The notes under the pieces are model-generated. The model was not told the origin of the DNA. It searched no databases and was given only the letters and a program-made list of their open reading frames with translations. DNA of 64,000 nt, from assembly GCA_028583605.1 (NCBI GenBank), contig CM053333.1, positions 33,067,051 to 33,131,050 of the forward strand. Reading direction: 5' to 3'. The position numbers and the translations under genes were made by a program. Shown one piece after another: positions 3,000 through 63,765 of the stretch. Position 1 is the first letter of the stretch. Each line of letters begins with the position of its first letter. Origin of the DNA: Dastarcus helophoroides (taxonomy: Eukaryota > Arthropoda > Insecta > Coleoptera > Bothrideridae).

Positions 3000-4900
3000 T
3001 TTCCAAAATTAAGGAGAAATGTTTCACTTTTGTCGAGAGTTTAATTTCTTTGTAAATAATTTTTAAAAAAATCTACTTATTTAACAATTTTTGATTATTT
3101 CCAAAATATCGTTTTTTCAAGATTACTTTTTTTCCTGTAATTTTTTGAAAAATTTGATTTTAAATTTCATTATTTTTAACAAATTTCTTTTTTAACTCGT
3201 TTTGATTTTGTAAAAATCCCTTTTTAAAAATTACAATTCAAACTTTGAAGTTTTTGTAATTTTGACATTTTTAAAATTCTTTTAAATAACATTCTATTTT
3301 CAATCATTATTTTTTTCAACACTTTTTTTAATTTTAAAATTTTGTGAAATTTCTATTTATTACTTATTTGAAATTTTTGAGATTTCCAAAATATCGGTTT
3401 TTTTAAGATTACTATTTTTTCTTGTAATATTGAATTTTATTTTAAATTTCATTATTTTTTTACATTTTCGTTTTTAACTCGATTTTGATTTTTGTAAAAA
3501 TTTTTTTTTGAAAATTACTAATTCAAACTTTGAAGTTTCTTTTACATTTTACATTTTTACAATTCTTTTAAAAAAAATTCTATTGTTTAAAAGTCGGCAT
3601 TTTTTTTCAAACATTTGTCCCATTTTAAAATTGTGCAATATTCAAAATTTCGATTTTGAATTTTCAAATTTCAAAAAAGGAGAAATGTTCACTTTTTGTC
3701 GAGAGTTTAATTTCTGTGTAAATAATTTTAAAAAAATTCTACCTATTTAAAATTTTTGATATTTCCAAAATATCGGTTTTTTTCAAGATTACTTTTTTTT
3801 CTTGTAATGTTGAATTTTATTTTAAATTTCATTATTTTTTTTTACATTTTGTTTTTTTAACTCGATTTTGATTTTTGTAAAAATTTTTTTTTTTGAAAAT
3901 TACGAATTCAAACTTTGAAGTTTTTTTACATTTTACATTTTTACAATTCTTTTAGAAAAAATTCTATTGTTTAAAAGTCGGCATTTTTTTTCAAACGTTT
4001 GTCCTCATTTTAAAATTGTGCAATATTCAAAATTTCGATTTTGAATTTTCAAATTTCAAAAAAGGAGAAATGTTCACTTTTTGTCGAGAGTTTAATTTCT
4101 TTGTAAATAATTTAAAAAAAATTCTACTTATTTGAAATTTTTGATATTTCCAAAATATCGGTTTTTTTTCAAGATTACTATTTTTTCTTGTAATATTGAA
4201 ATTTATTTTAAATTTCATTAATTTTTTACATTTTCTTTTTTAACTCGATTTTGATTATTGTAAAAATTAATTTTTTGAAAATTACTAATTCAAACTTTGA
4301 AGTTTCTTTTACATTTTACATTTTTACAATTCTTTTAGAAAAAATTCTATTGTTTAAAAGGTCGGCATTTTTTTTCAAACGTTTGTCCCATTTTAAAATT
4401 GTGCAATATTTAAAATTTCGATTTTGAATTTTCAAATTTTAAAAAAGGAGAAATTTTCACTTTTTGTCGAGAGTTTAATTTCTTTGTAAATAATTTAAAA
4501 ATATTCTACTTATTTGAAATTTTTGATAGTTCCAAAATATCGGTTTTTTTTAAGATTACTATTTTTTCTTCTAATAATGAATTTTATTTTAAATTTCATT
4601 ATTTTTTTACATTTTGTTTTTTAACTCGATTTAGATTTTTGTGAATATTTTGTTTTTGAAAATGACAAACTCAAACATTGAAGTTTTTTTACATTTTACA
4701 TTTTTACAATTTTTTTAGAAAAATTCCTATTTTCTAAAAGTCGACATTTTTTTTCAAACTTTTCTCCCATCTTAAATTTATGCAATATTCAAAATTTGAA
4801 TGTTCAAATTTCAAAAAAGGAGACCTTTTCACTTTTTGTCGAGAGTTTAATTTCTTTGTAAATAATTTTTAAAAAATTCTACTTTAGCAAATATTTAAAA
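3000..4900. repeat. T-rich satellite, ~370-385-bp units
   Basis: A conserved block, GGAGAAATGTTCAC followed by TTTTTGTCGAGAGTTTAAT, occurs at about 3012, 3680, 4062, 4447 and 4818. The spacing is about 370-385 bases; the first gap is about twice that and holds a partial unit. Each unit also contains GTCGGCATTTTTTTTCAAAC and AACTCGATTTTGAT. Open frames of 61-85 codons inside it follow the repeat and are not genes. Confidence 0.8.
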
Positions 4901-21723: not shown

Positions 21724-21824
21724 TTGGCTTAAAAAATTACAAGTGTATGTAAAAAAAAATAATATAACTCTGCCAATAAATAAATTGGAAAAATATTTAC
21801 CTTTTTTGTAATTAGAAACAACCC

Positions 21825-22268
21825 ATGTAGCAAAAATGTTTGCCTAATAAACAGTTAAAAGTCAGTTACAAGTCACCCGTTGGAGGTTTTCTCTCTTGGA
21901 TACTTATAAGACTGACTAACGGCTTTAAGTTGGAAGTGTATACAACCACCGTACCATGCTGATGAGGCCAAGGAAGGCCGAAACTAGTCTATGGTTGCGG
22001 TTGTACATATTTTCAATTTTAAGCACGTTTAACTGTTTAATTACAGAACATTTAATTGGTCATTTGTCAAAACTAGATGAAAGTAAAGTCACGCCGAGGA
22101 CGTTTGTATCAATGGATGTTGCGATGCAACCCGTGATACAAGCTTTGCCTCATCTACGTGAACTTTGCAATTGCAGTCTAATTTTCATTAGATTCTAATG
22201 AAATTAGATTTCAATTGCATCGTAATAAACTTGTATAAATTCGTATATACAAGGCTTATTATCTCAGT
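21825..22268 (+). mobile_element. 444-bp hammerhead-ribozyme retroelement, copy 1
   Basis: The insertion is bounded by an 11-bp direct repeat, AGAAACAACCC, at 21814-21824 and 22269-22279. It begins ATGTAGCAAAAATG and ends CTTATTATCTCAGT. It contains a hammerhead ribozyme at 21937-22006. A second copy of exactly the same length and ends lies inverted at 26605-27048. There are no terminal inverted repeats. The target duplication and lack of coding capacity fit a non-autonomous retroelement (retrozyme- or Penelope-related). It is inserted inside the pogo-like element, between its transposase and right end. Confidence 0.85.
21937..22006 (+). ncRNA. Type I hammerhead ribozyme
   Basis: The core CTGATGA is at 21959-21965 and GAAA at 21980-21983. 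Stem II is GGCC/GGCC (21966-21969 with 21976-21979) with a six-base loop. Stem III is two pairs (AC at 21983-21984 with GT at 21987-21988) and a two-base loop. The cleavage triplet is GTC, with cleavage expected after C21989. Stem I has an inner helix CCATG/TATGG and an outer helix TACAACC/GGTTGTA. These are separated by unequal internal loops of six and four bases, as expected for loop-loop contacts. All conserved core bases are present. A stem III this short is known from Penelope-type hammerheads, which often work as dimers. Confidence 0.9.
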
Positions 22269-22657
22269 AGAAACAACCCGTAAAAATTTATAAAAAATTA
22301 TTATTCTTTTTTTAAAAAAGCACAACACACTAATTGAAACATTACAAAAAGCACAACACACTACATAAATGAAACTGAACTCTAAAATTAGCAAAACAAA
22401 GTGAAAATAAAACTGTATTAAAATTGCGTTGATTTTCGGTTAGAAAGGGAATCCCCATGGCGCAATTAGAAACAAAAGTGGTGCCACCTTGTGGAAAAAA
22501 AGAATATTTCAAAAAATTTCAAAACAAAAATTAAAGGCTCGAACCTAAAACAACGCAATCTTGAAAATCTATCGACGCACAGTGAAAATTAGTACTAATT
22601 AAGCAGCGACGCAACTTCGAAAAAATGCAAAACGAAACGACGCAAAGCGAGGTACTG

Positions 22658-22874: not shown

Positions 22875-24645
22875 CAGGGTGTTACAAAAGTCCGGGCCGC
22901 TACTTCAGGAGCATATTCTACACATTAAAATATGAAAAATGTTGAAATACATTTTTTTCTTTAAATTGCCTCCTAACGGAGATATGACCATTTAAAGATG
23001 GCGCCCCTAAAGTGTTTTTTTTACTACAAAAAGTTAACGGTTAGTAGCAAAGTCATGAAATTGGGCAAGCAGTTAAAGAATTGGATTAGGCATATTCTCA
23101 CGTAACATATTTTTTAAATAAGCAGTAGCGTGGTGTGTAGGGGGTTGCCCGCGATTATTTTTTGCCGTAACTTTTTTGTATTGCAATATTTCGACACAAA
23201 AGTGCCATAATCGTAAAAAGTAACATTTTTTATACAAAAAAGATACTCCTTCTCAAAGTCGCTAAAAGTAACCGTTTCCGAGAAAAAAGCATTTAAACAA
23301 AATTGTTGCATTTATTAGAATTCGTTTTGCAAATTTCTATTTTATCCACTACTAACTGCATTGATATAAAAATAGTATAAAATTAAGAAAAAAAAAATCA
23401 AAGCAAGTGTTCGAAATTACTGCCCCCTGCAGCAATACATTGCTCGGCTCGTCTTCTAAGGGAACTCCTTACTCTTTCGCAAATGCCTGGTGTATTGTGA
23501 ATCTGGTTGAACCCATTTTCAATTCGTTCACGAAGATCATTGATATTGTCAACTGGTGTGGAGTAGACGATCTGCTTTAGATGTCCCCATAAGTAGAAAT
23601 TGAGTGGGTTGAGGTCAGGAGACCTAGCTGGCCATGGTATCGGACCTCCTCGACCTATCCATCGTTGATGATAGTTGTTATTCAAAAATTCCCTAGCAAC
23701 TGCACTAAAATGGGCAGGTGCCCCATCGTGCATTAACCACATTCGCTGTCTTGTTATGAGTGGAACATTTTCAAGTAACACGGGTAACTCTGTTTGCAAA
23801 AAATGTCTATATGATGCTCCTGTTAACCTATGAGGTAAAAAAAATGGTCCAATTATAGAGTCCCCTATTATTCCTCCCCAAATATTAAGCGAAAAATGTT
23901 GCTGATGTCTCGACTGAATAACTGCATTGGGATTTTCAACTTGCCACTGATGCATGTTGTGAAAGTTAAGTATCCCGTTTCTGGTAAAACCCGCTTCGTC
24001 CGTAAATAATATGAGCGATGGAAAGTTCTCATTTTCAGCGATCTTATGCAATAGCCAGTTGCAAAATTCTATTCTTGGAGGATAATCAGCAGCAAGTAAC
24101 CCTTGCACTCTTTGAAAATGATAGGGGTAAAATTGGTAAAATTTCAAAATTCGCCAGATAGTTACGTGATTTACTCCTTCGGCTAAAGCAAGTTGTCTAG
24201 TGCTGACACATGGATCTTCTTCAACTCGCTGAAGCACACGCTCCTCTAAATTAGCAACTTCTGCGTTTGGCCTTCCAACACGTTCGCCTTTGAAAACAAA
24301 ATTTCCTGTTTCACATAAACGAGCATGAATTTTCTGGAACAATTTTTCTCCTGGTAGGTGTCTATTAGGAAAACGTTCAGCATAAAGCCGTCTTGCTTCA
24401 GCACGATTACAATTTGCAAGCCCGTACATTAAATGCATATCGGCCATTTCTTGATTTGAATAGTCCATTTTATCAAAATAATGAAAAGTTAAAAAACTAC
24501 TACACTTACTATTGACAACAAAAACTGCTAAAGTTTACAGCTTACGACCAAATCTTATCAGTGACACAACGTCAATCTCTGGCAGATATTGTCAAGTACA
24601 ATTGTTTTCTCCTGAAGTAGCGGCCCGGACTTTTGTAACACCCTG
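22875..24645 (-). mobile_element. Tc1/mariner-superfamily transposon with intact transposase
   Basis: The ends are CAGGGTGTTACAAAAGTCC on the left and its inverse at 24608-24645, each next to TA (22873-22874 and 24646-24647), the standard target of this superfamily. The inverted repeats match over about 37 bases. The transposase reads from the right end. The left subterminal ~425 bases (22875-23300) are repeated in inverse at 24740-25158, outside the inner right end, so a second terminus lies further out. Confidence 0.85.
23398..24468 (-). CDS. Tc1/mariner-type transposase, DUF4817-like N-terminus
   Basis: This is an uninterrupted 356-residue frame from ATG at 24468. It would bind the element ends and catalyse cut-and-paste transposition in the nucleus. 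Residues 1-60 look like the DUF4817 helical domain of arthropod transposases (EMADMHLMYGLANCNRAEA, RLYAERFPNRHLPGEKLF). A second helix-turn-helix follows (VSTRQLALAEGVNHVTIWRI). The catalytic residues are Asp in LILFTDEAGF, Asp in WLMHDGAPAH and Asp in RSPDLNPLNFYLWG. The third is Asp, not Glu, with 36 residues between the second and third. The PDLNP...WG motif is typical of mariner relatives. The length is normal for the superfamily. No stop or frameshift is present, so it may be active or recently so. Confidence 0.92.
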   Translation of the reverse strand: MDYSNQEMADMHLMYGLANCNRAEARRLYAERFPNRHLPGEKLFQKIHARLCETGNFVFKGERVGRPNAEVANLEERVLQRVEEDPCVSTRQLALAEGVNHVTIWRILKFYQFYPYHFQRVQGLLAADYPPRIEFCNWLLHKIAENENFPSLILFTDEAGFTRNGILNFHNMHQWQVENPNAVIQSRHQQHFSLNIWGGIIGDSIIGPFFLPHRLTGASYRHFLQTELPVLLENVPLITRQRMWLMHDGAPAHFSAVAREFLNNNYHQRWIGRGGPIPWPARSPDLNPLNFYLWGHLKQIVYSTPVDNINDLRERIENGFNQIHNTPGICERVRSSLRRRAEQCIAAGGSNFEHLL

Positions 24646-25975: not shown

Positions 25976-25978
25976 TTT

Positions 25979-26120
25979 GGTCCTTGGTTATCTTAAAAAA
26001 TTGAAATACAAATCTAGTTAGTATCGCTCTGAAAATGATAGTTTGGCTATCGAAACGAGTTTGTTGTCTTTTCCAATCTCTCTTGGTTTCAGGGGACAAG
26101 ATTAGTATTTCAAGGACAGA
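25979..26120. repeat. Family S copy, degenerate
   Basis: The left side carries GGTCCTTGGTTATCTT and the right side TCTTGGTTTCAGGGGACAAG. Between them is CTGAAAATGATAG, TTTGGCTATC and GAAACGAGTTTGTTG. This is a diverged version of the hammerhead-like block of family S, in which the CTGAAGA core is mutated. Confidence 0.65.
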
Positions 26121-26340: not shown

Positions 26341-26603
26341 AAAATGGCTGCACTTAAAATAATACTCTTGTTTTCAAGCCGAAATAAGACAAATTTTTTA
26401 GTTGCAAACCGTCATAACGATAAAATGTGGCTTTCCCCTCAATTCTGCTTGTTCAACTCTAGAGCACATCGCTAATATTTCGTTTTGAATGGTTGCTTAG
26501 ATGCATATTGTAGAACTGCATTATACACAATACCTCACTTTGCGTCGGGGTTTCGTTTTAAAAAAACACGACGCAAAGGAAATTAAGATTTTCTATAGTA
26601 AAC
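26341..26603 (+). repeat. Flanking repeat copy 2 plus pogo-like left end
   Basis: 26341-26529 repeats 16331-16518. It is followed by AATACCTCACTTTGCGTCGG, a better-preserved version of the pogo-like end seen at 16519. Only about 75 bases of that element remain before the hammerhead element begins at 26605. The rest of the transposon is missing. Confidence 0.7.
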
Positions 26604-26604
26604 T

Positions 26605-27048
26605 ACTGAGATAATAAGCCTTGTATATACGAATATATACAAGTTTATTACGATGCAATTGAAATCTAATTTCATTAGAATCTAATGAAAAATAGACTGC
26701 AATTGCAAAGTTCACGTAGATGAGGCAAAGCTTGTATCACGGGTTGCATCGCAACATCCATAGATACAAACGTCCTCGGCGTGACTTTACTTTCATCTAG
26801 TTTTGACAAATGACCAATTAAATGTTCTGTAATTAAACAGTTAAACGTGCTTAAAATTGAAAATATGCACAACCGCAACCATAGACTAGTTTCGGCCTTC
26901 CTTGGCCTCATCAGCATGGTACGGTGGTTGTACACACTTCCAATTTAAAGCCGTTAGTCAGTCGTATAGGTATCCAAGAGCGCAAACCTCCATTGGGTGA
27001 CTTGTAACTGACTTTTAACTGTTTATTACGCAAACATTTTCGCCACAT
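26605..27048 (-). mobile_element. 444-bp hammerhead-ribozyme retroelement, copy 2
   Basis: On the minus strand this has the same ends and the same 444-bp length as the copy at 21825-22268. Divergence is low; the shared 80-codon open frame differs at only a few residues. No matching target duplication was found: the left flank is AGTAAACT and the right flank GCTAATTG. One side may therefore have been rearranged, in line with the truncated pogo end on its left. Confidence 0.85.
26867..26936 (-). ncRNA. Type I hammerhead ribozyme
   Basis: This is the minus-strand copy of the ribozyme at 21937. The core CTGATGA is the inverse of 26908-26914, GAAA the inverse of 26890-26893, and the cleavage triplet GTC the inverse of 26884-26886. 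The region from stem I through stem III is identical to copy 1. The outer stem I helix is slightly longer on the 5' side (GTACAACC). Confidence 0.9.
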
Positions 27049-27076
27049 GCTAATTGAAGCATTACTCTCTGCTGAG

Positions 27077-27179
27077 ATACAAGCTTTGCCTCATCTACGT
27101 GAACTTTGCAATTGCAGTCTATTTTTCATTAGATTCTAATAAAATTAGATCTCAATTGCATCGTAATAGATTTGTATAT
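27077..27179 (+). repeat. Truncated copy of the 444-bp element, 3' part
   Basis: GATACAAGCTTTGCCTCATC through GCATCGTAATAGATTTGTATA matches the 3' third of the hammerhead element (about 22135-22237). It stops exactly where the LTR at 27180 begins. It lacks the ribozyme. Confidence 0.75.
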
Positions 27180-36140: not shown

Positions 36141-37379
36141 CGAAGTATTTTCTTATATAAATATATAAATAAATATAATATATTATTATGTAAAAATTTT
36201 GTTTTTCCAACATTTCGATTTCTCCAATTTTGTTTATAAGCAAATGCAAGGTTAAGTAACAAAGAAGTCATTATTTTACTTTTTTAGACTGTGGGATTGT
36301 CGTGTGTTTTCCTTTTCAAATGATTGGAGAAATTGCTCGCGTAAATGTTAAGTTTGCTCTTGAGGAAATTGTCCAAATTGAAGTGGCTTTATATCATGTC
36401 GTTGATATTAGATAAAAAATGATGTAGTATTTCCTGCTGTTGAGAAAACAAGATGTAAGCAAATAATATGTATAGAAGGCAAAAAGTAAATAAATAAATA
36501 GGGATCGAGGTAAAAGCTTTGTATTTACTTTTCAATATTTACTTGCCTTCTATCCGTTCCTTAAAATTCCATTCGATTTTCCAGATGAAAGGTGCAGAAG
36601 CTATTATATCAGTTAAAGGATACTATTCTATTTGTTTCGTTGGTTTGCTGCTTCAAATAAATTTGGCGATACAAAGCACTCTCCCGAATTAAATTTGATC
36701 GAACTATGGAGCGATAATGAAGTTTTTTTTATATCGGGGGAAATTCAAATTCAAATAATTAATATGTTTTCGTAAGCAAATTCGTTCTGTTGGGAATAAA
36801 AGGGAGGGGGTGGTCTGGTTAAGCGCAGGAAGATGAGGGCAAATTTCCAAGTATGAAAGGCTGTTGGCGACCTATGTCACATTTAGCTCCGATTTGTGAG
36901 ACCAAATTCAGTCTCTGGTATACGGTTGGTAATTTTCAAGCGCTACAGTGCCTTTATTCTTTTGCGGTCGTCGGCCCCTCTATCCCCAGGGAATGAATAA
37001 ATTAATAATGTCCCTCACTCACCCGTTCACTTGCCCCAAATGCGTCTGCATGTATTTGCATTAAACTTTTCTTCTAGAAACTGCATTTTTAATAGAGTTT
37101 TATACGGTTCTTTATTCAGCTTAATCTCTAAATAGACCCGTGCTGCTAATAACATAACTGCTACAGAACAACCATTTGCATATTCATATATATTACAGAT
37201 AATGACCTCTTTTTTAATAGCCTTAACAGCATTTGCATTAGATTTAGATATAAACTATATCGTCTCGTAGCAAAATACGCGTGATTTAAATCTGAATAAA
37301 GACGTTAAAAATCTTCAAAAAAAAACTAATGGCTTCGTTGAAAGATTAAGTTCTCTATACCCAATATATGAATTTTGAT
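36141..37379. other. Low-copy DNA with a small hairpin
   Basis: No gene is supported. A hairpin pairs TATAGAAGGCAAAAAGTAAA (36471-36490) with TTTACTTGCCTTCTAT (about 36537-36552); a transcript could form an ~80-nt stem-loop. The remainder is AT-rich and unrecognised. Confidence 0.4.
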
Positions 37380-37625
37380 GGAACGGACTGGTCCTTGGTT
37401 ATCTTCAAAAATTGAAACACAGAACTTGTCCCCTGAAACCAAGAAAAATTAAAAAACACAACAAAGGTTGCTCTAACGCGTTTCGACAGCCAAGCTGTCA
37501 TCTTCAGAGAGAGAGTTTCTCTCTGAAGATGACAGCTTGGCTGTCGAAACGCGTTAGAGCAACCTTTGTTGTGTTTTTTAATTTTTCTTGGTTTCAGGGG
37601 ACAAGTTCTGTGTTTCAATTTTTCA
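37380..37625. repeat. Near-perfect family S palindrome
   Basis: The left arm (37407-37512) and right arm (37518-37623) are inverse copies with almost no mismatch, separated by about five bases. Each arm has the whole family S sense block: CTGAAGA, a GACAGC/GCTGTC stem, GAAACGCGTT, GCAACCTTTGTTGT, CTTGGTTTCAGGGGACAAG. Because of this the same ~70-residue open frame appears on both strands. The left flank continues with GGAACGGACTGGTCCTTGG. Confidence 0.9.
37513..37570 (+). ncRNA. Hammerhead-like motif (family S), plus arm
   Basis: CTGAAGA is at 37523-37529, fitting the CUGANGA core. Stem II is GACAGC/GCTGTC (37531-37536 with 37540-37545). GAAA is at 37546-37549. A two-pair stem III AC/GT leads to GTT with T37555 at the cleavage position. 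Stem I is CTCT/AGAG (37519-37522 with 37556-37559). One extra base (T37530) lies between A9 and stem II, which is not canonical. The mirror copy is on the minus strand at 37460-37512. Activity is uncertain. Confidence 0.45.
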
Positions 37626-38165
37626 ATATATGAATGTTTTTATTTCCTGAAGCGGAAGAGGATGGAAAGAAGAATTATATAAGCGATAACCTGCAGACAA
37701 ATGCCAGTTTATAATACTTATATTAATACATTTCTTATCTCGTATCAGGAGTTTGCAGGCCCTTCAAATAAAAGTGAAAACCTGTGGAGTTGGATCGAGG
37801 AGGCCGAGTTGACCGATGTCAAGCGTCCACTTCTGTCCTGACGATTACGACAGATCGCTTTAGTGGCCTATCAATCGTCCCGTTAATAGTTTCCTTCAGA
37901 CTTATCGATCTTGTGTATAAAATAAGAAAAGCACCCGTTCATTTTTATCATCTTTATTCTCCTCAAAATAACACGCTCCCAGTTTTTATCGCAAAAAACC
38001 CATTAGAAGCATTCAGTGAAATCACAATTTGATCAATGAGTAATAGTTATGATAAGATTTTTCATAGACTCACCCTTTCTTGACTCTCCTTGGCTTCTGG
38101 TTTTAACTTCTTGGCTCTCAGGATCCGGGGAGGTGATACCGAATGTCCACGACTCACTTGTTCTT
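37626..38165. other. Low-copy DNA, no supported gene
   Basis: An 82-codon frame at 37784-38032 has mixed composition (SVLTITTDRFSGL...) but starts at a non-ATG codon and shows no recognisable domain. I leave it unannotated. Confidence 0.3.
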
Positions 38166-39640: not shown

Positions 39641-40271
39641 GGATCAAAGGACATTCTGGGAAAGAGGGAAACGAACGCGCTGAGAAACTGGCGAGGAAGG
39701 GTTCGGAGGGACAATTCGTTGGACCAGAACCAACCCTTCCCCTGGCAAGATCAACCGTAAGATCCCTACTTAACGAAGAAACTTATCGTAAACACAAAGC
39801 CTTATGGGCATCAATAACAACATGCCGACAAACTCACGCATTCATTAGAATGCCGTGCAGGGAAAGAGCAAAACTATGCCTACAACTCTCAAGGAATAAT
39901 CTCAGGAAACTTGTAGGGATATGGACAGGTCACTGTCGATTAAACAAACACCTCCACAGAATGGGAATCATAAACGACCCGAGCTGCAGAGAGTGCTTAG
40001 AAGAAGATGAGAGTGTCGAGCACGTGATGTGTCACTGCCCGGCACTAGCATCAATCAGAGGATCCACGCTGGGGGACTTCTGGCCTAGTGTGGCCAGTTT
40101 TGAGAGAGGCGCATCCAAGGGACGTTCTTCAGTTTCTCAACAAGGTTGGGTGACTGAATGAATGACCAAGGACACCTCAATCATGGGGATAGCACAATGG
40201 GCCCGGAAAGGGTGGCCTAAGTGCTGGCCTAAATTTTTAGGCAACCCACAACGAATCCAGAATCCAGAAGA
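39641..40271 (+). mobile_element. Truncated non-LTR retrotransposon insertion
   Basis: The insertion is flanked by the 9-bp direct repeat GCATGTGTC (39632-39640 and 40272-40280), so the target duplication is intact. It is 5' truncated and ends in a short GAATCCA repeat tail. The coding part is at 39642-40161. The same 3' end is present inverted at 46084-46250. It lies antisense within the gypsy integrase tail. Confidence 0.9.
39642..40161 (+). pseudogene. Non-LTR ORF2 RNase H and zinc-knuckle tail
   Basis: The frame starts inside an RNase H domain with GHSGKEGNERAEKLARKGS, the conserved C-terminal His/Asp part of non-LTR RNase H. It continues with CLQLSRNNLRKLVGIWTGHC and the zinc-binding segment CRECLEEDESVEHVMCHCP. 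It closes with a natural TGA. Elements of the I, jockey and R1 groups have this arrangement. Everything upstream (endonuclease, RT) is missing through 5' truncation. The retained part has no stop, so insertion is probably fairly recent. Confidence 0.85.
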
Positions 40272-40281
40272 GCATGTGTCT

Positions 40282-41124
40282 CCAATATCGCTTCCCTCAA
40301 GTCGTCTACGAAACCCATCGTCTCCCTGGGGATGTCTCTTGGTGATCCAAACACCAAGTCACACGGAAGCTGCAGTTCCCTCCCGAAGATCACTTTTGCC
40401 GGAGTCTGACTTGTAGTTTCATGAATTGCCGCGCGATAGGCCATCAGAAACAGTGGTAGATGTCGATCCCAGTCTGTCTGATGTTTGGAAACGACCTTCG
40501 AAAGATGTTCCTCTAAGGTCCTGTTAAATCTCTTTACCATTCCGTCAGACTGTGGATGAAGAGGTGTTGTTTTAGTTTTCCTTATTCCAAGAAGACGACA
40601 CACCTCTTGGAAAACCCCCGATTCAAAGTTCCTTCCCTGGTCCGAGTGTAGCTCCAAGGGAACACCAAATCGACAGATGAAGTTATCCACAAGAAGCTTG
40701 CGACTGTGGTGGCTTCCTGGTTTGGGATGGCATATGCTTCAGGCCATTTACTGAAATAATCCATCGCCACCAGGATGTACTTGTTGCCATCGTCTGAAGC
40801 TGGGAATGATCCTGCTACATCGATTGCAATTCTTTCGAATGAAGCTCCCACATTGTATTGCTTCAGGGCCCCTTTGGTTCTTGTACGAGGACCCTTAGAT
40901 GCAGCGCAGGTGACACATTTCCGACAACACCGCTCGACGTCCTCCCGGCAGTTAACCCAATAGAACCGTTTTTGTATCTTCTCCAGGGTCTTGTTCATCC
41001 CTAGATGTCCACCAGAGGTCCCATTGTGCACTTCCCACAAGACCTGTGGAATCTTCTGCTGAGGCACCACCAACTGCAAGTTGACGCGCTTTCCATCCGC
41101 GCTTTCCCATGCTCTCTTCAGCAC
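40282..41124 (-). pseudogene. Gypsy integrase, zinc domain and core
   Basis: The zinc-binding domain shows HNGTSGGHLGMNKTLEKI and CRKCVTCAASKG. The core has FERIAIDVAGSFPASDDGNK (first Asp) and, after a frameshift near 40690, LELHSDQGRNFESG (second Asp). The expected catalytic Glu lies in SDGMVKRFNRTLEEHL, where the family has MVERFNRT; here it is Lys. The frame ends at the non-LTR insertion. The frameshift and the Glu-to-Lys change both inactivate it. Confidence 0.9.
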
Positions 41125-41226
41125 CCCGTCTTCTACCTGGAGGGATCTTCATTGAGCCCACAAATTCTTAAGAGCTGGACTTCTGTCGGAAACCTCTTGC
41201 CATTCAGGTCTATCTCCAGCTTCTTT

Positions 41227-41787
41227 TCATTCCAATATGCGTCCGATATCAGCGTCGCTCTTCTGTAGCTCCCAAAGACCTTCAACAGTCCATTCGTCTT
41301 CTGGCTGAACAGACCTTACCCTTATATTTACCATATCCTCATGGTCCTCAACTCGTTTGCAGCCTTTGTAATCTCCACAAGGTCTTCTGGACAAAGCGTC
41401 AGCGTTGTTATGCTGTCGTCCCGGTCGATGATGCACCTTAAAGTGATACTGCTGAAGCCTTTCTAACCATCTAGCCGTCTGTCCCTCCGCGTTCTTCATT
41501 CGGAGTAACCTGAAAAGTGCCGAATGGTCTGTTCTGATGAGGAATTCTTGCTCGTACAAATACTTGTGAAAGTATTCCACGGCCTTCACTATCGCAACTA
41601 GTTTCTTTCTGGTGGTGCAATAATTCCTCTCCGGCTTCGTCAGGATCTTGCTGTAATATTCGATCACTCCTTCTTCACCGCCTTGAACTTGGGACAGCAC
41701 AGCTCCAATGCCGACGTTGCTGGTACCTGTGTCTAACACAAACTTCCCATTCTGCTGAGGATAAGCCAAGATAGGGCTTGTGCACAA
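41227..41787 (-). pseudogene. Gypsy RNase H domain
   Basis: This is the RNase H region of pol that follows RT. It shows LDTGTSNVGIGAVLSQVQ, EYYSKILTKPERNYCTTRKK, LIRTDHSALFRLL and VHHRPGRQHNNADALSRRP, all hallmarks of the Ty3/gypsy RNase H. It is in the same frame as the RT fragment upstream and the integrase downstream. It is bounded by two nonsense codons that replace Trp codons (TAG at about 41830 and TGA at about 41227). Confidence 0.9.
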
Positions 41788-41829
41788 GGCGGACTTCAGT
41801 TTCCGGAAAGCGGTATTACAATCGGGAGT

Positions 41830-42870
41830 CTAGATGTACGGTCTTCTTCCTTCCATTAGTTGATGTAACGGCGCAGCGATGTTGGCAAAACATTTCACAA
41901 ATCTTCTGTAATAGGAACATGACCCCAGAAAACTCCTCAGTTCATGTTTGTATTTGGGACTTGGCCAGTCACGAATTGCTTGAGTATCCCGTACCACAGT
42001 AACCTTGACTCCTGGGTCCACTGGGTCCACTGTTGCCTGTACATTCCTTCCATCCCCACTGGCTTTCACCACCAAACCCTCCTTGGTCCTTTTTATCTGT
42101 TTGATGGGAAGAATTTTGGGGACTGGTTTCTTCACGTTAACTAGTGAGTTCTCTTTCTCGCCATGTTGTCTTCTTAATGTGGGGCTTGTTGACTTCTTGG
42201 GGGTTGATTTGCAGTTCTTCTTGCCACAGCTGTAACATGTTGTGCTTCTTCTGTTGGGTCTACATTTAAGAGATTCCAGCAGTTCCTTGATGCTCGCGTT
42301 CACATCTTTTATGCTAGCGTTCATGTTCGCCTTTATTCCCTCCATGTTAGCACTTATGTTCGCGTTCGTCTCCTTTATGTTAGCGCTCATGCTCGCAAGA
42401 TCAGGGTTATTCGCAACCCCCTCGATGTTAGCCTTCCTTATTCTCCGTGACGCCTCTGGCTCCGAAACCTTATAAGCAGCTTCTACTTCCAAAGCTCTAA
42501 TCAGTGCCTCCCTTGATGTTCGGAAGTTTGACAAGCGCATCACTCCCTGGACTTCTGAGTCTCGTATTCCTTCTATGAAAATTCTAGCTGTGTAAAGTTC
42601 CAAAAATTCAATTGGTGCTGTTGGATAAGCTGCATGAGCCAGTCTTTTTACGTCAACCTCGAATTTTTGCAGCGTTTCATTACTTTTCTGCTTCCTTACT
42701 AGTAGTTGCTCCTGGGCCACTTGTGGCAAATGATAGTTTCCAAATATTAGCTCTAAAGCCCTAACTAAATCTTCATAGTTAGCTAGTTCGTAGTCAGAGC
42801 TCGAAGTGGTTCCAAAGCTTCTCCGCGCAGGGAAACCACCAATGAGGTCGTCTTTTCGTCTTCGGTCCAT
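41830..42870 (-). pseudogene. Gag fused to RT connection by internal deletion
   Basis: This is a 346-codon open frame. The first part is Gag: YHLPQVAQEQLLVRKQKSN, LYTARIFIEGIRDSEVQGV, then an Asn/Ala/Ile-rich repeat and a partial zinc knuckle, CYSCGKKNC. It then passes directly into the region after the RT palm: QAIRDWPSPKYKHELRSFLG, YYRRFVKCFANIAAPLH. Protease and the RT catalytic palm are therefore deleted, leaving the reading frame open across the junction (about residues 225-290). It ends at a TAG where the family has Trp. Confidence 0.85.
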
Positions 42871-43208: not shown

Positions 43209-43255
43209 TTTTTCAGTTATATTTGCTAACAGACTGTGTAACTCTTGATTTTCTG

Positions 43256-44055
43256 CATTCCTTTTCTGATCTTCTTTTTGTTTTTCTTGTCGTCTTGGTT
43301 CTTCCTCCTGTTCTTTTTCTTGTCGTCTTCGTCCTTCATCTTGTTGTCTTCGTTCTTCCTCCTGTTCTTTTTCTTGTCGTCGTCGTTCTTCCTCCTGTTC
43401 TTTTTCTTGTCGTCTTCGTTCTTCATCTTGTCGTCTTCATTCTTCCTCCTGTTCTTTTTCTTGTCGTCGTCGTTTTTCCTTCTGTTTTTTTTCTTGTCGC
43501 CTTCGTTCTTCCTCCTGTTGTTTTTCTTGTCGTCGTCGTTCTTCCTCCTGTTCTTTTTCTTGTCGTCTTCATTCTTCCTCCTGTTCTTTTTCTTGTCGTC
43601 TTTGTTTTTTCTCCTGTTCTTTTTCTTGTCGTCGTCGTTCTTCCTCCTGTTCTCTTTCTTGTCGTCTTCGTTCTTCATCTTGTCGTCTTCGTTCTTCCTC
43701 CTGTTCTTTTTCTTGTCGTCGTCGTTTTTCCTCCTGTTTTTTTTTCTTGTTGCCTTCGTTCTTCCTCCTGTTGTTTTTCTTGTCGTCGTCGTTCTTCCTC
43801 CTGTTCTTTTTCTTGTCGTCTTCGTTCTTCCTCCTGTTCTTTTTCTTGTCGTCTTTGTTTTTTCTCCTGTTCTTTTTCTTGTCGTCGTCGTTCTTCCTCC
43901 TGTTCTTTTTCTTGTCGTCTTCGTTCTTCGTCTTGTTGTCTTCGTTCTTCCTCCTGGTCTTTTTCTTGTCGTCTTTCTTCTGCTTGGTCTTTAAACATTG
44001 TTAATAACGCTTGCATTTGCTGTTCCATTTTGGCCAATTTTAATCTCGTATCCAT
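43256..44055 (-). pseudogene. Gag N-terminus with E/R/Q-rich repeat tract
   Basis: The true start is ATG at 44055 (MDTRLKLAKMEQQMQALLTM). It is followed by a charged tract built from EERRQQEKEQ-type units. The tract is encoded by a minisatellite with a ~30-33-bp basic unit and a 252-bp higher-order unit (for example the TTTTTTTTCTTGT(C/T)GCC block at 43486 and 43738). A frameshift within the repeat puts 43226-43678 in another phase reading KKKNRRKNDDDK. Such charged tracts are predicted to be coiled coil or disordered. Confidence 0.75.
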
Positions 44056-44209
44056 AAAGTGTATTTGAATGTACAAGATTTTACTTGACGCGCCTCGTAT
44101 AACTATTTAACAGTTTAAAACGTCCGAGATAAAGTCAACTGCGGCACCTGGTATGAATTTTTCTGAGTAATAAGCACAATCCACGAATAATCCCACTTCT
44201 GACACCAGA

Positions 44210-51515: not shown

Positions 51516-51715
51516 TCGAAATTTCGAATTTAAAAATTTTCGTAACAGGCAAATTTTCGAAAAGTTAAAATTGCGAAAATTCGAAGTTTAGAGGAAACGG
51601 TCAACACTTTCAAAAAAATGTTGGAAATAAGTTCCCTGAAACTAAAAAAAATTGGTTTCAGGGGACAAGATTTTTATTTTAATTTTTGAAAAATTGAAAC
51701 ACAGAATTTTTTTTG

Positions 51716-51905
51716 ATATAACGGACTGGTCCTTGGTTATCTTCAAAAATTGAAACACAGAACTTGTCCCCTGAAACCAAGAAAAATTAAAAAACACAAC
51801 AAAGGTTGCTCTAACGCGTTTCGACAGCCAAGCTGTCATCTTCAGAGAGAAAACTAACTAATTTTTGAAGATAACCAAGGACCAGTCCATTCCACCAAAA
51901 CTTCT
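51716..51905 (-). repeat. Complete family S element
   Basis: It starts AACGGACTGGTCCTTGG and ends with the inverse, ATAACCAAGGACCAGTCC, so both outer ends are present. In between, on the minus strand, lie CTGAAGATGACAG, GCTGTCGAAACGCGTT and the splice-acceptor-like TTGGTTTCAG block. It is 190 bp long. This is the best guide to the outer limits of family S. Confidence 0.8.
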
Positions 51906-63549: not shown

Positions 63550-63765
63550 TTGATGGAACGGACTGGTCCTTGGTTATCTTCAAAAATTGAAATACAGAAC
63601 TTGTACCCCTGAAGCTAAGAAAGATAAAAAAACACAACAAAGGTTGCTTTAACACGCTTCGACAGCCAAGCTGTCATCTTCAGAGAGAAAACTCAGTTTT
63701 CCTTTGTTGTGTTTTTTAATCTTTCTCGATTTCAGGGGACAAGTTCTGTATTTCAATTTTTCATT
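63550..63765. repeat. Family S palindromic copy
   Basis: The left half starts GATGGAACGGACTGGTCC and holds, on the minus strand, CTGAAGATGACAG with GCTGTCGAAGCGTG; GAAA has become GAAG, so the core is broken. The right half carries CTTTGTTGTGTTTTTTAATC and the TTTCAGGGGACAAG block in the plus sense. Part of the second hammerhead-like block is missing. Confidence 0.75.

Follow-up and report, generated by a model that had tools for sequence, protein, structure and literature searches.

The element at positions 21825 to 22267 (plus strand) of the window, the 64,000-nucleotide stretch of Dastarcus helophoroides DNA analyzed here, is, judged by its sequence, one copy of a new family of animal non-LTR retrozyme that is common, small, and non-coding. 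We think it likely that this is a non-autonomous retrozyme whose unit measures 466 nt and whose mover is a Penelope-like enzyme that starts copying from two sites, A and B, of one RNA. The scars left by its insertions suggest that an enzyme of the Penelope type begins copying the retrozyme RNA at two fixed points, each of which serves one end of the cut host DNA. Animal retrozymes and the insertion anatomy of Penelope-like elements (PLEs) are already known.

The borders of the window copy are marked by a target duplication, TAGAAACAACCC, found by direct-repeat comparison in both flanks, at 21813 to 21824 on the left and at 22268 to 22279 on the right. The original prediction had recognized the flanking direct repeats but gave them 11 bp; since the full duplication is 12 bp, the insert measures 443 bp and not the 444 bp then proposed, while the family unit is 466 bp and tandem at many loci. 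We numbered this unit q1 to q466 after the copy at locus L004, with the ribozyme cut after q165. Added to the 443 bp of the window copy, CAGAGAGTAATGCTTCAATTAGC completes the unit, so the window copy (q1 to q443) falls 23 nt short of one turn, lacking q444 to q466. A repeat search of the window copy found no terminal repeats. Adjoining the element downstream there is an exact 18-bp direct repeat, AAAAAGCACAACACACTA, at 22315 to 22363, with its copies 31 bp apart.

A type I hammerhead ribozyme was identified at 21940 to 22012 (plus strand) both by an Rfam match and by a scan for the type I layout. The CTGATGA core begins at 21959 and the predicted cut falls after C21989 (q165). The best Rfam match, to HH9, has an E value of 5.6e-4 (701 bases scanned) and 25.5 bits, below the gathering score of 52. 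The layout scan gave two matches in the whole 64-kb window, one in this copy and one in a second copy, and none in 200 dinucleotide shuffles of the window. The core is intact but helix III is weak, as its hexamer, ACTAGT, can pair over about 2 bp at most in a monomer, and for that reason the description of a complete type I hammerhead with three stems holds for the hammerhead and its core and was generous for the stems. The hexamer is self-complementary, and two ribozymes could share it as a common helix III; ribozymes with a weak helix III that cut as dimers are known (PMC7761336). In young loci that had not been selected by ribozyme, the core is intact in 62 of 63 units, and no exact match to the 31-nt ribozyme core was found in viral contigs. 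The RNA of the 444-nt stretch is more stable than its shuffles (z of −8.05), none of 100 shuffles being equally stable.

The host genome (G000, 538.9 Mb) contains 1,728 ribozyme cores at one mismatch or fewer, a count of units and not of loci, and no match to a reversed control pattern of the core. Searching it with a full-length copy returned at least 124 matches (40 scored of 1,981 candidates), arrays included. The further genome copies anticipated by the original prediction are therefore many, and they occur as tandem arrays of the 466-bp unit, often as several laps. Its proposal of a new monomeric type with an internal ribozyme had to be rejected, since the sister copies are tandem. The window copy instead represents a single lap, begun at site B and broken off 23 nt before the turn was complete, and the ribozyme lies inside the copy because copying starts 278 nt downstream of the ribozyme cut. 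The unit has a GC content of 36%, and its longest frame, of 80 codons, shows 149, 166, and 140 substitutions at the three codon positions, 107 of 455 being synonymous, as well as 16 stops and 35 frame-shifting gaps across copies. On this pattern of neutral change the unit is non-coding, as originally predicted, and a reverse transcriptase (RT) or GIY-YIG frame is absent from the retrozyme.

To describe the insertions we assembled a final set of 67 entries from the one genome examined. L001 to L008 are the best matches of the full-length search, from which L005 was dropped as its array is that of L004. L009 to L048 are 40 stretches around the first places of a ribozyme-core list (100 places listed), selected by an intact core with layout disregarded; L022 and L023 are two halves of one locus, separated by a later insertion. 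L049 to L067 are 19 loci found on both strands in the full-length search table and picked as inverted-looking, and L068 is direct. The rule of two ends described below was first noticed in the table that yielded L049 to L067, so L009 to L048 form an independent sample.

The 67 mapped entries have 105 outer 3′ ends, of which 92 cluster at two points of the unit, site A (q241 to q254; 48 ends) and site B (q438 to q457; 44 ends), with 13 lying elsewhere. The 5′ ends, counted after leaving out eight old or interrupted entries, are scattered over the unit (13, 12, 9, 9, 13, 4, 9, 10, 10, and 3 per successive tenth; n = 92). Copies with different boundaries had been named beforehand as a finding that would speak against the element; the 5′ boundaries do differ, but the 3′ boundaries are fixed, and this combination is what target-primed reverse transcription predicts. 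Minimum-energy folds of 35 to 36 nt place both sites within predicted hairpin loops; the hairpin at A has 7 bp, and the one at B is longer and interrupted. By 3′-end count and local fold, the putative hairpin with start site A in its loop (q245 = 22069) lies at 22060 to 22080 of the window, and the 5′ side of the site B hairpin at 22251 to 22267, where the window copy ends at q443 (both on the plus strand). Exact genome matches, counted to gauge read-through beyond the two sites, number 1,265 for the core of A (608 with 10 nt beyond) and 1,138 for B (454 with 10 nt beyond), with 983 for a control 29-mer alone, and carry no weight.

Target duplications accompany many of these insertions. Flank strings of at least 10 bp are held in common in 29 of the 67 entries compared to none of 596 controls, in which flank pairs were swapped between entries of the same end type. 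The lengths center on 12 to 13 bp, 20 of the 29 strings having one of these two values, so that duplications of a common length do occur at other loci as foreseen. They are rarer in direct entries (at least 9 bp in 6 of 29) than in inverted ones (24 of 38), and the second side of many direct copies therefore seems to be closed by a different route. It could be argued that the family is a satellite that recombination has spread with no part played by reverse transcription, given its tandem units and the first discovery of hammerheads in animals within satellite DNA (PMC7229834). Dispersed short insertions with duplicated targets, 3′ ends fixed at two points, and unconstrained 5′ ends do not fit such an origin, which is already contradicted by the end statistics and to which we attach practically no credence. 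The earlier description of a non-autonomous, RNA-mobilized hammerhead element, on the other hand, is supported by the fixed 3′ ends, the scattered 5′ ends, the duplications, and the tandem laps.

More than half of the entries (38 of 67) are head-to-head, with a minus arm followed by a plus arm and both 3′ ends facing outward. Of these 38, 31 combine an outer end at A with an outer end at B (13 of 19 in L009 to L048 and 18 of 19 in L049 to L067), and none is A/A or B/B. If ends were independent they would be unlike in about 48% of cases, and the chance of 31 out of 31 would be near 1e-10. Three further cases (L009, L022 with L023, and L037) are also A/B if later insertions are bridged by eye, while in L029, L036, L045, and L067 at least one end lies elsewhere. 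Another exception is the second retrozyme copy in the window, at 26603 to 27179 on the minus strand, which was overlooked originally and emerged from the hammerhead scan and unit mapping; it is of the inverted type, with a minus arm (q1 to q446), further unit sequence, and a short plus arm (q311 to q414), its left end being at B and its right end, q414, outside both usual sites. Direct entries end at A in 14 cases, at B in 9, and elsewhere in 5 (L023 left out).

These end pairs bear on the identity of the mover. A LINE-type enzyme could also leave 5′-truncated copies and duplications of some 12 bp, and ordinary twin priming would then account for the inverted copies. In LINE-1, twin priming combines a start at the RNA 3′ end with one free internal start and yields inversions; the retrozyme resembles it in target-primed copying with inversions, but here both outer ends lie at fixed internal sites, one of each kind. 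Reviews do name LINEs beside PLEs as possible movers (PMC7229834; PMC11722881). Even so we find a LINE-type mover improbable, as a PLE of the host genome (PLE2, described below) has the same layout and duplication length, in a comparison that covered the PLEs of this genome.

An inverted arm could also form if a single cDNA were made and its end folded back on itself, and self-priming on an antisense template was proposed by the authors of the rotifer PLE work for palindromic PLE copies (PMC3846280). The identity of the arms within a locus would agree with this, as would a strong palindrome at about q341 to q395 with a minor cluster of 3′ ends beside it (q406 to q426; L011, L021, L029, L067, and the second window copy). 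Folding back would, however, repeat the same outer end on both sides, whereas the two ends differ in 31 of the 38 inverted entries, and no entry pairs A with A or B with B. The idea is contradicted for the main class, and as a general explanation we hold it to be very improbable, although it may still fit the few entries ending at q406 to q426. The latter ends adjoin the palindromic hairpin, none of the four mapped loci that have them (L011, L021, L029, and L067) shows a clear duplication, and they are perhaps fold-back products.

We then compared the two arms of each inverted locus in 18 of the 19 loci L049 to L067 (L063 had no usable minus segment), dropping segments shorter than 60 nt or below 95% identity and trimming the ends by 10 nt. 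Minus and plus arms of the same locus differ at 26 of 18,219 positions and arms of different loci at 3,312 of 283,982. Re-pairing the arms 20,000 times never gave a match as close as that of the true pairs. At L049, nine segments from both arms differ at 0 or 1 positions. An older sample gave a weak contrast, with inverted arms differing by 5.0% within and 5.6% between loci and tandem units by 2.0% within. Arms longer than one unit are frequent (44 of 92), ten exceed two units, and the longest, of 2,082 nt, corresponds to up to 4.5 laps; in 33 inverted entries the unexplained sequence between the arms does not exceed 11 nt. Taken together, arm identity, laps, and these short junctions mean that in young loci both arms come from the same template sequence, often copied more than once round without entry into flanking DNA. 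A linear monomer cut by the ribozyme is unfit as the usual template because its copies would stop at q166, and only 1 of 92 5′ ends lies within q163 to q169.

The simplest template with these properties, and most likely the real one, is a circular RNA. An uncut linear multimer transcript could nevertheless take its place, with a PLE enzyme still copying from A and B. Tandem source loci are present in the genome, and in vitro the ribozyme mutants of an Anolis PLE insert as well as the wild type, uncut RNA being the main substrate (PMC11167929), a result that speaks against a need for circle or cutting. This reading is harder to reconcile with long arms whose units are identical or nearly so within young loci, and with arm junctions too short to have carried source flank along, and we regard it as rather unlikely.

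GIY-YIG domains are frequent in the host genome, with at least 91 matches (150 scored of 1,070 candidates), and loci examined near them have Penelope-type RT and GIY-YIG frames that are mostly incomplete. In one family, PLE2, the frames examined are mostly broken, and its ribozyme is one that we take to be of the Penelope kind. In the window and L009 to L048 (264,530 bases), matches to the 252-nt 3′ region of PLE2 number 71; their 3′ ends gather in two clusters separated by about 30 nt, and the matches form 25 head-to-head pairs and 1 tail-to-tail pair. Both ends are assignable in 14 pairs, being unlike in 10 and alike in 4, with three of the four alike-ended pairs inside two satellite-like arrays; of the other pairs, 9 have one end elsewhere and 2 are cut off. 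Duplications of 10 to 15 bp were seen in 7 of 18 hand-picked pairs (arrays and cut pairs out, one PLE locus, L076, added) versus 2 of 306 swapped controls. In the window itself, PLE2 3′ regions lie head-to-head with unlike ends at 37375 to 37630, where a 12-bp duplication makes this a candidate for the scar of the enzyme family itself, and at 63550 to 63761, with no clear duplication (6 bp).

Head-to-head PLE2 pairs are also present in the window at 25977 to 26113 and at 51713 to 51898, the latter with site 2 at both ends. A second PLE family (L070 and L072 to L075) has a degenerate-looking hammerhead core and ends at one of two points about 35 nt apart, corresponding to the PLE tail. Besides these elements, the window contains an intact frame of 356 codons at 23398 to 24468 (minus strand) that resembles a mariner-type transposase, with the closest database protein 72% identical; broken frames at 40229 to 42870 (minus strand) resembling, by eye, a Ty3/gypsy-type polyprotein; and a long low-complexity tract at 43223 to 44068 with several frames open on both strands.

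No sequence motif common to the PLE and retrozyme start sites holds up. The motif TCA(A/G) occurs six times per unit and both retrozyme starts lie at one, with PLE2 site 1 ending about 5 nt past it when duplications are trimmed; we make no claim for it. PLE2 sequence stands beside the retrozyme in 4 of the 67 entries (L002, L017, L018, and L057). At L002 the retrozyme is young, whereas the PLE2 pieces match the query at 84% and 90%, and L057 has the appearance of a retrozyme that landed within a PLE2 copy. Older PLE copies may thus equally well have served as insertion targets, and we do not claim template switching between PLE2 and retrozyme. At L018, a satellite-like array of inverted PLE2 3′ regions (527 to 2375; repeat of roughly 390 to 450 bp) is followed by a retrozyme copy (2377 to 2651) that starts 1 bp after it.

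Animal non-LTR retrozymes have been described as non-coding tandem repeats of 150 to 450 bp with a type I hammerhead, a GC content below 50%, highly self-paired RNA, and target duplications that, when present, exceed 4 bp (PMC7229834). The class is further marked by the lack of an LTR, a PBS, and a PPT, and by self-cleavage with abundant circular RNA. The D. helophoroides family shares the type I hammerhead, the small tandem repeats, the lack of coding capacity, the GC content, the self-paired RNA, and duplications of this size, and differs in a unit of 466 bp, just above the stated range (PMC7229834). Plant LTR retrozymes are likewise non-autonomous, carry a hammerhead, and have a proposed circular RNA intermediate, but their hammerhead is of type III and placed in LTRs, and they have a PBS, a PPT, and 4-bp duplications (PMC7761336). 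Assignment to that group failed on the type I hammerhead, the lack of terminal repeats, and duplications of mostly 12 to 13 bp. In the parts of the open-licence literature available to us, including PMC7229834, PMC7761336, and PMC11722881, we found no account of head-to-head, two-start retrozyme insertions.

In its insertion anatomy the retrozyme resembles PLEs. Both strands are cleaved and extended by the Anolis PLE protein, which begins at two adjacent sites within its own RNA, the tail being the stretch between them; the protein is predicted to form a dimer (PMC11167929). Rotifer PLEs have inverted head-to-head pLTRs, one of which may carry a tail, and duplications of 8 to 10 bp (PMC3846280). 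The retrozyme shares with PLEs the head-to-head copies, the two alternative 3′ ends with one per side, the internal starts, duplications of about 8 to 12 bp, and the extension of both strands (PMC11167929; PMC3846280). In both, the hammerhead lies upstream of the starts, by 63 to 100 nt in our comparison, by 80 nt for retrozyme site A, and by about 85 to 92 nt in Anolis (computed from PMC11167929). The duplications of the retrozyme, mostly 12 to 13 bp, agree in length with the 10 to 15 bp of PLE2. Unlike PLEs, which encode an RT and, in canonical members, a GIY-YIG endonuclease, the retrozyme lacks such a frame, its hammerhead is classical rather than minimal, and its starts are about 198 nt apart on the unit compared to about 30 to 40 nt in PLEs.

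Based on these data we propose a mechanism in which the circle, the dimer, the identity of the enzyme, and the order of events are what we infer. Tandem transcripts would be cut by their own hammerheads and a host ligase would close the 466-nt circle. A Penelope-like RT with a GIY-YIG endonuclease, probably a dimer, would bind one circle at the two hairpins and make a staggered break of about 12 bp, after which each target 3′ end would prime copying, one in loop A and the other in loop B. Each enzyme could stop within the first lap or continue for several, and head-to-head joining of the two cDNA ends would follow; where a single end was copied, a direct, 5′-truncated copy such as that in the window would result. 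We give an even chance to a more specific version, two-ended rolling-circle target-primed reverse transcription, in which the circle offers two distant loading sites to a dimeric Penelope-type enzyme and serves both ends of the break while two enzymes chase each other round it; the A/B ends would be the fossil of this process and the one-sided tail of PLEs its small version.

In 2020 PLEs were called "a strong candidate" for the mover of animal retrozymes from the type I hammerheads in common, the tandem copies, and the co-existence of the two (PMC7229834). In D. helophoroides, whose genome holds both, the insertion scars themselves bear the PLE signature, and they mark where copying starts on the RNA. 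A single purified protein and a 466-nt RNA would thus be enough to put the question of the mover to the test. The same scheme would give a simple account of the head-to-head copies and one-sided tail of PLEs, in which one RNA would offer a separate priming site to each end of a single break.
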